Assembly (NCBI RefSeq): GCF_022808935.1
Contig: NZ_JAKZFR010000003.1
Span: 186,001-250,000 of the forward strand
DNA length: 64,000 bases
Source: Geothrix sp. SG200
GTDB taxonomy: Bacteria; Acidobacteriota; Holophagae; Holophagales; Holophagaceae
Direction of reading: 5' to 3'
The position numbers were made by a program, and so were the translations under genes. The first letter of the stretch is position 1, and each line of letters opens with the position of its first letter. The notes beneath the pieces are model-generated. The model did no database searches and had not been told where the DNA came from. It was given only the letters and a program-made list of their open reading frames with translations. Of this stretch, positions 28,198 through 32,745 are shown in pieces.

Positions 28198-28213
28198 TAC
28201 GACAAGTTTCGTA
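28198..28213. promoter_or_regulatory. BlaI-type operator, site 1
   Basis: Reads TACGACAAGTTTCGTA, a dyad with arms TACGA / TCGTA and a six-base centre. It lies 35 bases upstream of the repressor start codon. Its arms resemble the TACA/TGTA-type arms of known BlaI/MecI operators. Confidence 0.7.
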
Positions 28214-28219
28214 GCTGTC

Positions 28220-28235
28220 AACGAAGATTGTCGTA
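28220..28235. promoter_or_regulatory. BlaI-type operator, site 2
   Basis: On the minus strand this reads TACGACAATCTTCGTT, matching site 1 at all but three positions. Centres are 22 bases apart, two helical turns, so repressor dimers would sit on the same DNA face. The site is 100 bases upstream of the divergent PIG-L gene, which may also be affected. Confidence 0.68.
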
Positions 28236-28335: not shown

Positions 28336-30930
28336 ATGCCGCGTCCTGCCGCCCTGCGCCCGACCCTTCCTGTCCACGGCGCCGCATGGCGGAACGCGTC
28401 CTCGGCGCTGGGCCGGGCGCTCCTCCTGGCGCCCCTCCTGGCGCTGGGCGTGGGACTGGGGCCCGGACTTTCGGCCCAGGTGCCGGTGCGGGACGCGGCG
28501 GAGCTGGAGAAACAGCTGGATCGTCTCCAGACCGTGGGCAGCGTCCTCTACCTCGCGGCTCACCCGGATGACGAGAACACCGCCGTGCTGGCCACCCTCT
28601 CCAAGGGGCGCAACCTCCGCACGGCCTACCTGGCCATCACCCGGGGCGGGGGCGGGCAGAACCTCATCGGCCCCGAGCTGGGCGACGGCCTCGCGGCCAT
28701 CCGCACCCAGGAGCTGCTGGCCGCGCGCCGAATCGATGGCGCCGAGCAGTACTTCACCTCGGCCGTGGACTTCGGGTTCTCCAAGACGGCGGAGGAGAGC
28801 CTGCGGATGTGGGGCCACGACCGGATCCTCGCCGAGGTGGTGCGGACCATCCGCACCTTCCGGCCGGACGTCATCCTCACGCGGTTCCCGCCGGATGCGC
28901 GGGCGGGGCATGGGCACCACGCCGCCTCGGCCCTGCTGGCCATCGAGGCCTTCAAGGCCGCCGCCGATCCGGACCGCTTCCCAGAACAGATCGCGGCCGG
29001 CCTCCGCCCCTGGCAGGCCACGCGCCTGCTGTGGAACCACTACCTCTTCACCGACGAGGCCCCCGCGCCGCCAGCCGGGAGCCTGACCCTGGAGGTCGGC
29101 GCCTACGACCCCCTGCTGGGGCGATCGTACGGCGAGTTGGCCGCCGAGAGCCGCAGCCAGCACCGTAGCCAGGGCTTCGGGGTGCTGGCCCAGCGGGGCC
29201 GGCGGCTGGAGACCTTCGAACGCCTGGAGGGCCGCCCCGCAACGGCGGACCTCTTCGAGGGGATCGACCTCACCTGGTCCCGCTTCCGGGGGACCCGCGG
29301 CCTCGCCACCCTCCTGCGCGAGGCCCGCGAGGGCTTCCGTCCGGAGCATCCCGCCGGCGTCCTCTCGCCGCTGATCCGCGCCCGGCAGGCCCTTGGCGCG
29401 CTGCCGGCCGGGACCCTGGCCGAGCCCCTGGTCCAGGCCAAGGCCGCGGAGTTGGAGGACGCGATCCGCGCGGCGGCCGGGCTCTGGGTGGAGGCCATCG
29501 CCGACCGCCAGCGCCTGGCGCCCGGTGACCGGCTCACGGTGCATGCCGCCCTGTTGGCGCGCGGAGACGGTGCCCTGGCACTCGAGTCCCTCGCGCTGGA
29601 ATCGGTCCGGCCGGAGGGAAGCCGTGTCCTGGAGTCCCGGAGGGAGGGAGCAATCCTGCCCGGCAATGCACCCTGGAAGGCGGCCTTCTCCTTCGCCGTG
29701 CCGGCGGACACGCCCCTGAGCCAGCCCCACTGGCTGGGAGGGCCGGGCGCGGAGGCCTGGGCGGGCCTGCCCGAATCCCCGGCGCCCTTCCGCCTCCGGG
29801 CCCGTCTGAAGACCTCTGACGGCTCCTTCGAGGTCACGGTGCCCGTGCAGTACCGGTTCCGGGATCCGGTCCTGGGCGAGCGGTACCAGCCGCTGGCGGT
29901 GGTGCCGGCCGCGCTCGTGACCTTCGCAGACCCGGTCCTGGCCTTCGAGACGCAGGCCGCAAAGGAGCTGCGCCTCCAGGTGCTCGCTGGCGGCGCGGCC
30001 GCCACCGGGCGCGTGCGCCTCCGGGTGCCCGCGGGCTGGGCGGTGGACCCGTCCGAGCAGACCTTCGCCCTGGCCCATGCCGGCGAGAAGAAGGAGCTGA
30101 GCTTCCGCATCACGCCGCCGGCCTCGGCCGCGTCCGGCGCGCTCCTCGCCGAGGTGGACTTGGGCGCTGGCTTCTCGGGCGCCCGCGGCCTCGTGGTGGT
30201 GGACCACCCGCACATTCCCCTGCAGACGCTGCTGCCCGAGGCGCGCGTGCGCCTGGAGCGCTTCGACCTGAAGCACGACGGCCGGCGCATCGGCTATGTC
30301 ATGGGGGCAGGCGACGACATCCCCCAGGCGCTGCGCCGCATCGGCTACGAGGTGGACCTCCTCACGGACGAGGCGCTGGCGCGGGAGGACCTGGCTCGCT
30401 TCGACGCCATCGTGCTGGGCATCCGCGCCTTCAACACCCGTCCGGCCCTCCAGACCCTCAAGGAGCGGCTCCACGCCTACGTCGCCGCAGGCGGGACCGA
30501 GCTGGTGCTCTACACGGTGAACACCGGCTTCCCGGGGATCAACGCCGCCATGGTCACGGAGGCTATCGGCCCCTACCCCTTCAAGGTGGGCCGGAAGCGC
30601 GTCACCGTGGAGACGGTGCCGGTGCGCCTCCTGAAGCCCGACCATCCCGTGTTCCACTGGCCCAACGAAATCAGAGCGGCGGACTTCGACGGTTGGGTGC
30701 AGGAACGCAGCCTCTACCACGCCGAGGGCTGGGATGCCCGCTACACGCCCCTGCTGGGCATGGCGGATCCCGGCGAGGCCGAGGACGCCGGGGCCCTGAT
30801 CGTGGCGCGGCACGGGAAGGGTCACTACGTCTACACGGGGCTCTCCTTCTTCCGCCAGCTGCCGGACGGCGTGCCCGGCGCCACCCGGCTCTTCGCCAAC
30901 CTGCTGGCCCTGGGGCATGCCCATGACTGA
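28336..30930 (+). CDS. Secreted PIG-L family deacetylase with C-terminal NEW3/ThuA-like regions
   Basis: The product has 864 residues; GAGGAG precedes the ATG. A long signal peptide ends near residue 48 (GLSAQVP). The PIG-L zinc motif AHPDDE is at 75-80 and the second ligand block HGHHAAS near 193-199. PIG-L enzymes remove N-acetyl groups from sugar conjugates. Residues about 380-620 are beta-rich and resemble NEW3 (alpha-galactosidase-like) domains. Residues about 640-860 (VLGIRAFNTRPAL, LVLYTVNTGFPGIN, HYVYTGLSFFRQLPDGV) resemble a glutamine-amidotransferase-like/ThuA fold without an evident catalytic Cys. The overlapping downstream microprotein and symporter suggest a system for importing a deacetylated or released sugar. 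Confidence 0.82.
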   Translation: MPRPAALRPTLPVHGAAWRNASSALGRALLLAPLLALGVGLGPGLSAQVPVRDAAELEKQLDRLQTVGSVLYLAAHPDDENTAVLATLSKGRNLRTAYLAITRGGGGQNLIGPELGDGLAAIRTQELLAARRIDGAEQYFTSAVDFGFSKTAEESLRMWGHDRILAEVVRTIRTFRPDVILTRFPPDARAGHGHHAASALLAIEAFKAAADPDRFPEQIAAGLRPWQATRLLWNHYLFTDEAPAPPAGSLTLEVGAYDPLLGRSYGELAAESRSQHRSQGFGVLAQRGRRLETFERLEGRPATADLFEGIDLTWSRFRGTRGLATLLREAREGFRPEHPAGVLSPLIRARQALGALPAGTLAEPLVQAKAAELEDAIRAAAGLWVEAIADRQRLAPGDRLTVHAALLARGDGALALESLALESVRPEGSRVLESRREGAILPGNAPWKAAFSFAVPADTPLSQPHWLGGPGAEAWAGLPESPAPFRLRARLKTSDGSFEVTVPVQYRFRDPVLGERYQPLAVVPAALVTFADPVLAFETQAAKELRLQVLAGGAAATGRVRLRVPAGWAVDPSEQTFALAHAGEKKELSFRITPPASAASGALLAEVDLGAGFSGARGLVVVDHPHIPLQTLLPEARVRLERFDLKHDGRRIGYVMGAGDDIPQALRRIGYEVDLLTDEALAREDLARFDAIVLGIRAFNTRPALQTLKERLHAYVAAGGTELVLYTVNTGFPGINAAMVTEAIGPYPFKVGRKRVTVETVPVRLLKPDHPVFHWPNEIRAADFDGWVQERSLYHAEGWDARYTPLLGMADPGEAEDAGALIVARHGKGHYVYTGLSFFRQLPDGVPGATRLFANLLALGHAHD

Positions 30931-31036
30931 CGCCCCGCCCCTCCTGGGCACCTGGAAGCGCCTCTACCTGATGGTTCTCGGCGAGCTGCTGCTCTGCATC
31001 CTGGGCCTCCGCCTCCTCGCCTGGGCCTTCTCGTGA
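30923..31036 (+). CDS. 37-residue single-pass membrane microprotein
   Basis: The ATG at 30923 overlaps the end of the PIG-L gene by eight bases and the TGA at 31034-31036 overlaps the GTG of the symporter. The product begins MTDAPPLLGTWKRLYLMVLG and has one hydrophobic helix from about residue 15 to 35, ending AWAFS. The double overlap (PIG-L/microprotein/symporter) makes translational coupling likely. Small one-helix partners occur beside some sodium:solute symporters, so an accessory subunit is plausible. It is too short for many annotation cut-offs and could be missed. Confidence 0.72.
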   Translation: MTDAPPLLGTWKRLYLMVLGELLLCILGLRLLAWAFS

Positions 31037-32745
31037 GCCGGCTCGACTGGCTCGTTCTCGGCGGCGCCCTGCTGGTCGTCGTGTGCTGGGGCCTCTACAA
31101 GGGCCGTGGCGCCACCTCGGGCGAAGCCTACATCGGCGGCGGGCGCGATCATCGCTGGTGGCTCATCGGCCTTTCGATCATCGCGACGCAGATGAGCGCC
31201 ATCACCTTCCTCTCCACGCCGGGCCTGGCCTACGTGGACGGCATGCGGTTCGTGCAGTTCTACTTTGGCCTGCCGCTGGCCGCCATCGTGCTGTCGATGA
31301 CGGCGCTTCCGCTCTACCACCGCCTGAAGGTCTCCACCGCCTACGAGATCCTCGAGGCCCGCTTCGACCTGAAGACCCGGCTCCTCGCCGCCGGCCTCTT
31401 CCTGATCCAGCGCAGCCTCTCGGTCGGCATCACGATCTTCGCCCCGGCCCTGGTCCTCTCGGTGCTGCTGGGCTGGAGCATCCATGCCAACATCCTGTTG
31501 GTGGGCGTGCTGGTCATGACCTACACGGTGGCGGGCGGCACCCGGGCCGTGGCCTGGGCCCACAGCTCGCAGATGGTGATCATCGCCTTCGGGATGATCC
31601 TGGCGGGCGTGATGACCGTCCACCGCCTGCCCGCCCATGTGAGCCTCGGCGACGCCTTGCATGTGGCGGGAGGCCTTGGGCGGTTGAACGCCGTCGATCT
31701 GCGCTTCGACCTGAACAACCGCTACAACCTGTGGTCGGGGCTCATCGGAGGCTTCTTCCTCATGCTTTCCTATTTCGGCACAGACCAGTCCCAGGTGCAG
31801 CGCTACCTCGCGGGCAGCTCGCTCACCCAGGGGCGCCTCGGGCTCCTGCTGAACGGCATGGTGAAGGTGCCGCTGCAGTTCCTCATTCTGCTGCTGGGCG
31901 TGATGGTCTTCGCCTTCTACCAGTTCCACGCGCCGCCGCTCTTCTTCAACCCGGGGCCCGTGAAGCAGGCCCTGGCGGGCCCGGAGGGCCCGGCCTACCG
32001 GGCCCTCGAGACCGACTACGCGAAGGCCAGGGACCTGCAGCGCCAGCGGGCCGAGGCCTTCGTGGCCGCCCGGCACGCCGGGGAGGCAGGGGCGATCGCC
32101 GCCGCCAAACGGCAGCTCCAGCAGGCGCAGGCGGAGAGCGAGGCGGTACGGCAGAAGGGGCTGGCCCTCATCGAGAAGGCCAATCCGGGCACCCGCCCCA
32201 GCGACGTCAACTACATCTTCCTCGCCTACGTGCTGAGCAGCCTGCCCGCCGGCCTGGTGGGCCTGGTGCTCGCCGCCGTGTTCTCGGGCTCCATGTCCTC
32301 CATGTCGGGGGAGATCAGCGCCCTGGGCGCGACCACGGTGGTGGACTTCTGGCGCCGCCTCATCGGCGGCAGTCGTGGCGTGCGCGAGGTGTGGGTGGGC
32401 CGCGCCGCCACGTTCGCCTGGGGCTGCTTCGGCATGGCCTTCGCCGAATACGCGGCCCGCCTCGGCTCCCTCATCGAGGCCGTGAACATCCTCGGGTCGC
32501 TGTTCTACGGCACCATCCTGGGCATCTTCATCACGGCCTTCTACGTGAAGCGGGCCCGCGGCGGCACGGCGTTCTACGCGGCCCTGGCGGCCGAGGCCGC
32601 CGTCCTGCTCTGCTTCGCGTTCACCTCCATCTCCTTCCTCTGGTACAACGTGGTCGGCTGTGTGGCGGTGGTGGGACTCGCATATGCGTTCAGCTTCCTT
32701 CAGCCGTCGGCCGAGGCACCGGGAGATCCGCTCGAAACCGCGTGA
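31033..32745 (+). CDS. Sodium:solute symporter (SSS family) with an inserted helical loop
   Basis: The product has 570 residues, begins with GTG and overlaps the microprotein stop by GTGA. About thirteen membrane segments are visible. SSS features include [36 protein letters not shown] in the first helices, [37 protein letters not shown], and [22 protein letters not shown]. Between residues about 300 and 395 lies a charged, helical insertion ([11 protein letters not shown] to [16 protein letters not shown]) not found in the minimal SSS core. It should import an organic solute with sodium. The substrate is probably linked to the PIG-L enzyme upstream, but it is not identified. Confidence 0.87.

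Follow-up and report, generated by a model that had tools for sequence, protein, structure and literature searches.

The locus considered here raises the question of what a membrane protein of 37 residues does between a secreted enzyme and a transporter. In the window (the whole 64,000-nucleotide stretch of Geothrix sp. SG200 DNA that was analysed), the genes for a PIG-L/LmbE-type enzyme, a single-helix microprotein and a symporter of the SSS family follow one another on the forward strand. They overlap at both joints, by 8 bases between the PIG-L and microprotein genes (ATG at 30923) and by 4 bases between the microprotein and symporter genes, exactly as an earlier annotation made from this DNA alone (the original prediction) had claimed. 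The features of the locus are the following:

28336..30930, + strand: apparently exported PIG-L/LmbE-type enzyme, 864 residues (open reading frame; signal-like N-terminus at about residues 1-48)
28534..29247, + strand: PIG-L metallohydrolase domain, residues 67-304, with HPDD and HGxH motifs (PF02585)
29965..30141, + strand: NEW3 (NPCBM-associated) immunoglobulin-like domain (PF10633)
30277..30927, + strand: C-terminal ThuA-like or glutamine-amidotransferase-like fold, residues 648-864 (fold match)
30923..31036, + strand: single-helix microprotein, 37 residues, or 39 residues from ATG 30917 (profile, selection and loci)
31033..32745, + strand: SSS-family symporter, 570 residues, GTG start (PF00474)
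31987..32181, + strand: helical hairpin of the symporter, residues 319-383 (alignment and model)

The 37-residue version of the microprotein is the safer choice, since in a near-identical homologous locus (L023; loci carry our L labels and genomes our G labels) the earliest in-frame start lies 8 bases ahead of the PIG-L stop, at the position that matches ATG 30923.

The microprotein and its partner

Across 19 genus-level copies (window included, last 34 codons), the median ratio of nonsynonymous to synonymous substitution rates (dN/dS) is 0.38, and the pooled ratio of nonsynonymous to synonymous proportions of differences (pN/pS) is 0.46 in frame versus 0.92 and 2.51 when those bases are read in the two alternative frames; most of the variation falls at third codon positions. 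The microprotein in Geothrix is under purifying selection, and chance is excluded as the source of the frame because of these in-frame and out-of-frame values together with profile matches in other phyla. A profile built from Acidobacteriota only recognises copies from Bacteroidota, with scores reaching 66 bits (L219). W13, Y17 and L24 are kept in all rows of a 28-row Acidobacteriota alignment, and in a second alignment of 27 rows, mostly from Bacteroidota, the tryptophan is invariant and the tyrosine kept in at least 90%. Ahead of the helix lies a conserved motif, PP..(G)(S/T)W...Y; the median length is 42 residues, and the charge of the flanks shows no average difference between the two sides that would indicate a topology. 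The frame, on whose conservation in homologous loci the original prediction had been made to hang, is thus conserved and recurs across phyla, which backs the proposal of a one-helix protein of 37 residues.

The two alignments, which share two sequences, were scanned at E≤1 against Pfam and NCBIfam together with the window protein; only scattered matches were obtained (best E 0.0068, none common to more than two rows), with the HMMER filters discarding most matches above E ~0.1. The profiles gave 0 and 3 matches among Protein Data Bank (PDB) chain sequences at E≤10, none below E 0.89. The microprotein therefore appears, by these comparisons, to fit no family catalogued in Pfam, NCBIfam or the PDB chains.

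Among 41 genomes (its own, the same genus and the same class) the microprotein is present at E≤1e-7 in 14, exactly the 14 with PIG-L, while five more match the profile only at E 0.17 or above. In Acidobacteriota, 107/297 genomes match (E≤0.1), and the top matches include many sequences from which the profile was built. The 72 genomes counted as true by score or locus leave out at least five true and two false ones: among the weak matches dropped, G180, G211, G270 and G306 are true by locus (L092, L087, L118 and L075, respectively), as is G203 (L084), which was absent from the weak matches listed, and G314 was counted although its locus (L168) ends at the contig edge. In the phylum of Chitinophaga (Bacteroidota in the wide sense), at least 121/395 genomes carry it (E≤0.001); the true number may be higher, since scoring was limited to 18 candidates per genome. 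By record titles, the best 80 PIG-L loci of named genomes place it in Acidobacteriota, Bacteroidota, Ignavibacteria, Candidatus Eisenbacteria and Myxococcota, and of 44 named genomes scanned whole, 37 have a match.

The two false genomes, G157 and G196, were dropped after inspection by eye. Their loci hold, on the minus strand, a 60-residue one-helix gene with a weak profile match (L166, 6001-6117; L167, 6001-6111) just ahead of what looks by eye like a permease of the iron-siderophore type; the small gene probably encodes another small subunit.

The loci chosen by their PIG-L gene (n = 179) comprise 99 from Acidobacteriota, taken from the matches listed and mostly the best of them, and the best 80 from named genomes; these are the only sets in which the microprotein played no part in the choice, and a few genomes are represented by loci in both. 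The symporter lies within the fetched stretch in 113/179. The microprotein directly precedes it in all 63 of the 99 Acidobacteriota loci that have one and, by the rule based on hidden Markov model (HMM) matches, in 49 of the 50 such loci among the 80 named ones (112/113 overall). In the fiftieth (L226) a copy was found on a second look, 61 nt ahead of a symporter with an apparently broken frame, and in L236 the copy is very short and divergent. The 66 PIG-L loci that lack a symporter match hold the microprotein in only two cases, L054, where the contig ends inside the symporter, and L183, an orphan. When 80 loci, nearly all from Bacteroidota, were instead picked by hand from the microprotein matches, the symporter was the next gene in 78; the other two are a locus with decayed symporter remnants (L396) and an orphan (L330).

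The pair does not depend on the place of the enzyme gene. The order microprotein-symporter-PIG-L is found in 12 loci of L075-L092 and in L096 and L104 (all Acidobacteriota), and in nine named genomes whose PIG-L gene has no adjacent symporter, the microprotein located elsewhere precedes a symporter, likewise in L328 and L329. The partner of the microprotein is the symporter, since the pair persists with PIG-L upstream, downstream or not in view. The original prediction had treated the three genes as one coupled unit; such a unit is indeed conserved in the 113 loci, except that the microprotein tracks the symporter, and PIG-L occurs without either. An argininosuccinate-lyase-like gene follows microprotein-symporter-PIG-L in 12 loci (L075, L077, L078, L081, L083, L084, L086-L090 and L092; the profile was run on a fragment of one). 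It may have a role connected with a malate-containing thiol.

The enzyme and the symporter

The enzyme scores 61.2 bits with PF02585 (cut-off 28.2), and NEW3 (PF10633) is also above its cut-off. Residues H76, D78, D79, H192 and H195 are invariant in 47 aligned PIG-L proteins, which covers the HPDD and HGxH motifs that we take to be the functional ones of the PIG-L domain. The first 48 residues are of low confidence in the structural model, and the signal peptide was judged by eye; the enzyme is apparently exported, and its true start may lie further downstream. The best fold match of the PIG-L domain is MshB (4ewl; Z 22.7, root-mean-square deviation (rmsd) 2.9, 223 residues aligned), tied with LnmX (Z 22.2, rmsd 2.7, 202 aligned) and followed by diacetylchitobiose deacetylase (Z 20.9, rmsd 2.2, 193 aligned) and the BshB of B. 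subtilis (6ull; Z 20.2, rmsd 2.7, 197 aligned). These values are close together, so the substrate is not chosen by the fold, and it is the neighbouring genes that choose. Among NCBIfam families the best match is the mycothiol amidase Mca, and all equivalog scores are below their cut-offs (in bits, Mca 53.3 against 277.15, MshB 29.2 against 224.35, BshB1 25.7 against 182.5, BshB2 27.1 against 195.25).

The C-terminal part (residues 648-864 of the model) resembles STM3548 (2gk3; Z 16.3, rmsd 3.2, 192 aligned) and a ThuA-like protein (1t0b; Z 14.8, rmsd 3.5, 195 aligned), whereas by sequence no ThuA match above cut-off was obtained there (E 0.13). The NEW3 and ThuA-like parts named by the original prediction thus hold in full for NEW3 and, for ThuA, by fold and not by sequence.

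The symporter, the sole SSS gene found in the genome at E≤0.001, scores 109.8 bits with PF00474 (cut-off 22.8) and 193.7 with TIGR00813 (cut-off 184), and falls far short of the TIGR03648 and ActP cut-offs. It belongs to the SSS/SLC5 family with the LeuT-type fold. Its model has a predicted local distance difference test score (pLDDT) of 87, and the nearest solved structure is the sialic acid transporter SiaT (5nv9/5nva; for 5nva Z 45.5, rmsd 2.4, 467 aligned). In the alignment SiaT is without an insertion of ~85 residues, which in our symporter forms a helical hairpin (319-349 and 352-383, pLDDT ~95) between the core helices 264-296 and 408-444. The extra helical loop first noted at this place is therefore real, though nearer to 85 than to the 95 residues then given. 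An insertion of 57-86 residues occurs in 48/48 aligned symporters, all chosen through their PIG-L neighbours; its length is conserved and its sequence little so. By homology, the hairpin is probably periplasmic. A substrate arginine common with SiaT was considered and rejected, as R127 fails to align with SiaT R135, presumably the substrate-binding residue.

Bacillithiol genes beside the PIG-L gene

The order bshC-short PIG-L (bshB1)-bshA-long PIG-L-microprotein-symporter is found in four loci (L064, L066, L067 and L070), in whose genomes BshC is above cut-off; the short PIG-L gene was confirmed as bshB1 by profile in L067 (254 bits, cut-off 182.5) and assigned by inspection in the other three. 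Five loci without a symporter (L094, L095, L097, L100 and L112) have BshA ahead of PIG-L, BshC adjoins PIG-L in L041 and L102, and in the Myxococcota loci L231 and L249 both BshA and BshC lie upstream of PIG-L on the opposite strand. In at least 17 Acidobacteriota genomes, picked among the matches listed, BshC is 0.1 to 8.7 kb from PIG-L on the same strand. Of 297 Acidobacteriota genomes, 157 have PIG-L, 174 BshC and 139 both; outside Holophagaceae, BshC is present in 139/143 genomes with PIG-L versus 35/127 without it, counts that ignore phylogeny.

On account of bshA, bshB1 and bshC beside the gene in several lineages, and of this co-occurrence in Acidobacteriota, the PIG-L enzyme is, as judged from gene content and neighbourhood, tied to bacillithiol metabolism. 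The salvage of an N-acetylated sugar compound, as first suggested, needs revising accordingly and is better specified in these terms. Earlier reports list Acidobacteria among the predicted bacillithiol producers (PMC6282198; PMC12719100), and bacillithiol and its derivatives are proposed as the most widespread bacterial thiols (PMC6282198). The Geothrix genome of the window encodes BshA (493 bits) and a divergent BshC (L255, G000:C1:998929-1000014, minus strand), seen as a match of E 1.7e-11 within a 571-residue frame and scoring 58 bits with PF10079 against the Pfam cut-off of 27; with these two, bacillithiol or a derivative is plausibly made.

Earlier work (PMC4360819; PMC4101496) describes thiol LmbE enzymes as deacetylating an N-acetylglucosamine (GlcNAc) precursor or cleaving S-conjugates, the latter by Mca and Bca for detoxification. 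The enzyme of the window type shares with MshB, Mca, BshB and Bca the PIG-L fold and motifs, and stands beside bsh genes. It is unlike them in its length of ~860 residues, its NEW3 and ThuA-like domains, its apparent export signal and its scores below all equivalog cut-offs. As the long PIG-L is apparently exported and, in the loci where this could be seen, is present alongside BshB1, a second task on the outside is likely for it, the cleavage of bacillithiol or its conjugates.

Readings of the module and its surroundings

On balance, and with modest confidence, we favour an outer bacillithiol module consisting of an exported amidase or deacetylase, a symporter that recovers the product and the microprotein as an accessory subunit of the symporter. 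The exported PIG-L would act in the periplasm, the inferred side of export, on compounds of the bacillithiol type: Cys-GlcN-malate (built of cysteine, glucosamine and malate), S-conjugates of it, or GlcNAc-malate. Its activity would most likely be that of an amidase or deacetylase, freeing a glucosaminyl-malate or amino-acid part. The symporter would bring the freed product back into the cell, with sodium as its putative coupling ion. The microprotein, made just before the symporter, would be its obligate subunit and, through a presumed physical contact, would stabilise or place it, much as the MAP17 helix does for human SGLT2. A wider form of this proposal is possible, if rather doubtful: many Gram-negatives might cycle bacillithiol outside the cytoplasm, in a manner comparable to the gamma-glutamyl cycle of glutathione. 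Secreted PIG-L would split exported bacillithiol or its conjugates, and a dedicated symporter would recover glucosaminyl-malate, working only with its one-helix subunit (the MAP17 analogue); this subunit may in addition tether the enzyme to the periplasmic hairpin.

Several results weigh against the favoured reading, apart from the disregard of phylogeny in the co-occurrence counts. The association with BshC is looser for the microprotein than for PIG-L (outside Holophagaceae, BshC in 53/58 genomes with the microprotein versus 121/212 without, or 58/63 versus 116/207 with five genomes added by hand). In Bacteroidota, BshC is present in 384/395 sampled genomes, so that it does not discriminate there. 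In Holophagaceae, the family of the window, BshC was not found at E≤1e-20, and the BshC of the window genome misses the NCBIfam cut-off. Seven of the 44 named PIG-L genomes have no microprotein match (L182, L186, L200, L208, L221, L238 and L239), and in none of these does a symporter adjoin PIG-L. In L183, L276 and L330 the microprotein is an orphan, with no symporter next to it, and L150-L165 are microprotein-symporter pairs with no PIG-L in the fetched stretch; the symporters of these pairs are perhaps paralogues for another thiol product. The sodium-site (Na2) serines of SiaT, which we take to be S342, S345 and S346, align to S422, S425 and G426 of the symporter (family consensus S/A/variable); being only partly kept, they do not assure sodium coupling. 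Coevolution between microprotein and symporter is not clearly above shuffles (192 rows, effective number 130, over 601 columns with a reduced alphabet; the best score between the two proteins is 0.70, and the maximum in 12 shuffles 0.68), and several of the top pairs within the symporter look implausible. Separately, two of the pairs without PIG-L (L154 and L156) have BshC on the same stretch.

Part of the same evidence could be read as general amino-sugar salvage, in which the secreted enzyme would deacetylate external N-acetylated sugars (chitin or wall fragments), the symporter would import the deacetylated sugar, and bacillithiol would be a matter of neighbourhood only. Foldseek places diacetylchitobiose deacetylases among the top matches of the PIG-L domain, with a fold score near that of MshB, and the nearest structure to the symporter is a sialic acid transporter; left unexplained are bshA, bshB1 and bshC in the same operon and the 139/143 co-occurrence, and we hold this reading to be unlikely. 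Somewhat less likely again is that the microprotein is a true subunit of the symporter, with enzyme and symporter acting on unrelated compounds and sharing only their regulation, within a thiol or stress operon. The separation of the microprotein-symporter pair from PIG-L in many genomes, and the bshA genes beside the five symporter-less PIG-L genes, would suit such an arrangement, whereas a symporter of the same kind in 113/179 PIG-L-chosen loci, in two gene orders, speaks for a common task.

It would be very improbable that the microprotein is a leader frame which only couples translation to the symporter start, the peptide having no role. The HMM matches of the two run together (gap -1) in 76 of 207 pairs and are 2 nt apart in 40, as such coupling would have it, but amino acids are conserved across phyla (the tryptophan and mostly the tyrosine), the dN/dS and codon-position variability are those of a protein, and the microprotein persists where gaps reach tens of nucleotides. 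That the three genes are translated together, as was originally stated, agrees with the overlaps of the window; in other loci the two HMM matches can be 2 to 170 nt apart.

For the module of enzyme, microprotein and symporter favoured above, the closest parallel is human SGLT2-MAP17, in which, according to PMC10803289, the single helix of MAP17, an auxiliary subunit, contacts transmembrane helix 13 of SGLT2. Both cases pair a one-helix protein with a transporter of the same fold (symporter model versus SGLT2 of 8hez: Z 37.5, rmsd 2.5, 479 aligned). The bacterial microprotein differs in its ~40 residues and in being operon-encoded; no SGLT-MAP17 entry was matched by its profiles among PDB chains (E≤10). 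Small membrane proteins encoded beside SSS symporters include DUF4212/TIGR03647, YjcH/DUF485 and YhdT/DUF997. Unlike the microprotein, these have two or more helices and families of their own, and DUF4212, DUF485 and DUF997 were absent among the E≤1 matches of the two alignments. We know of no comparable one-helix partner of SiaT.

No description of a PIG-L-microprotein-symporter module was found in the open-licence literature. The kinds of component are known; new, as far as seen, are the family of one-helix proteins, the strictness with which it accompanies a single group of symporters, and the connection with bacillithiol. If the favoured reading is true, the microprotein represents an overlooked family in four or five phyla (with Ignavibacteria counted apart or not) and a ready model for the control of SSS transporters by a one-helix subunit, with medical weight through SGLT2-MAP17, and the module would be a periplasmic recycling or detoxification arm for bacillithiol and its derivatives, an arm of which no description was found.

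Long open frames in L046 and L066 had the appearance of a three-gene fusion, which was rejected as a read-through artefact, since separate stops and microprotein frames exist. The PIG-L of the window and its counterpart in Geothrix paludis share 91% identity. BlaI and BlaR1 homologues lie upstream on the opposite strand, and aconitase downstream. A regulating module of BlaI and BlaR1 was considered and is not counted in the system, because among the searched loci, many of which hold little upstream sequence, a BlaI homologue adjoins only in L022 (the window), L023, L024 and L171. At 28198-28235 an inverted repeat, TACGACA...TGTCGTA, overlaps the divergent BlaI gene at its start and is a likely operator of the BlaI/BlaR1 pair; there is also a promoter-like match on the minus strand at this place.

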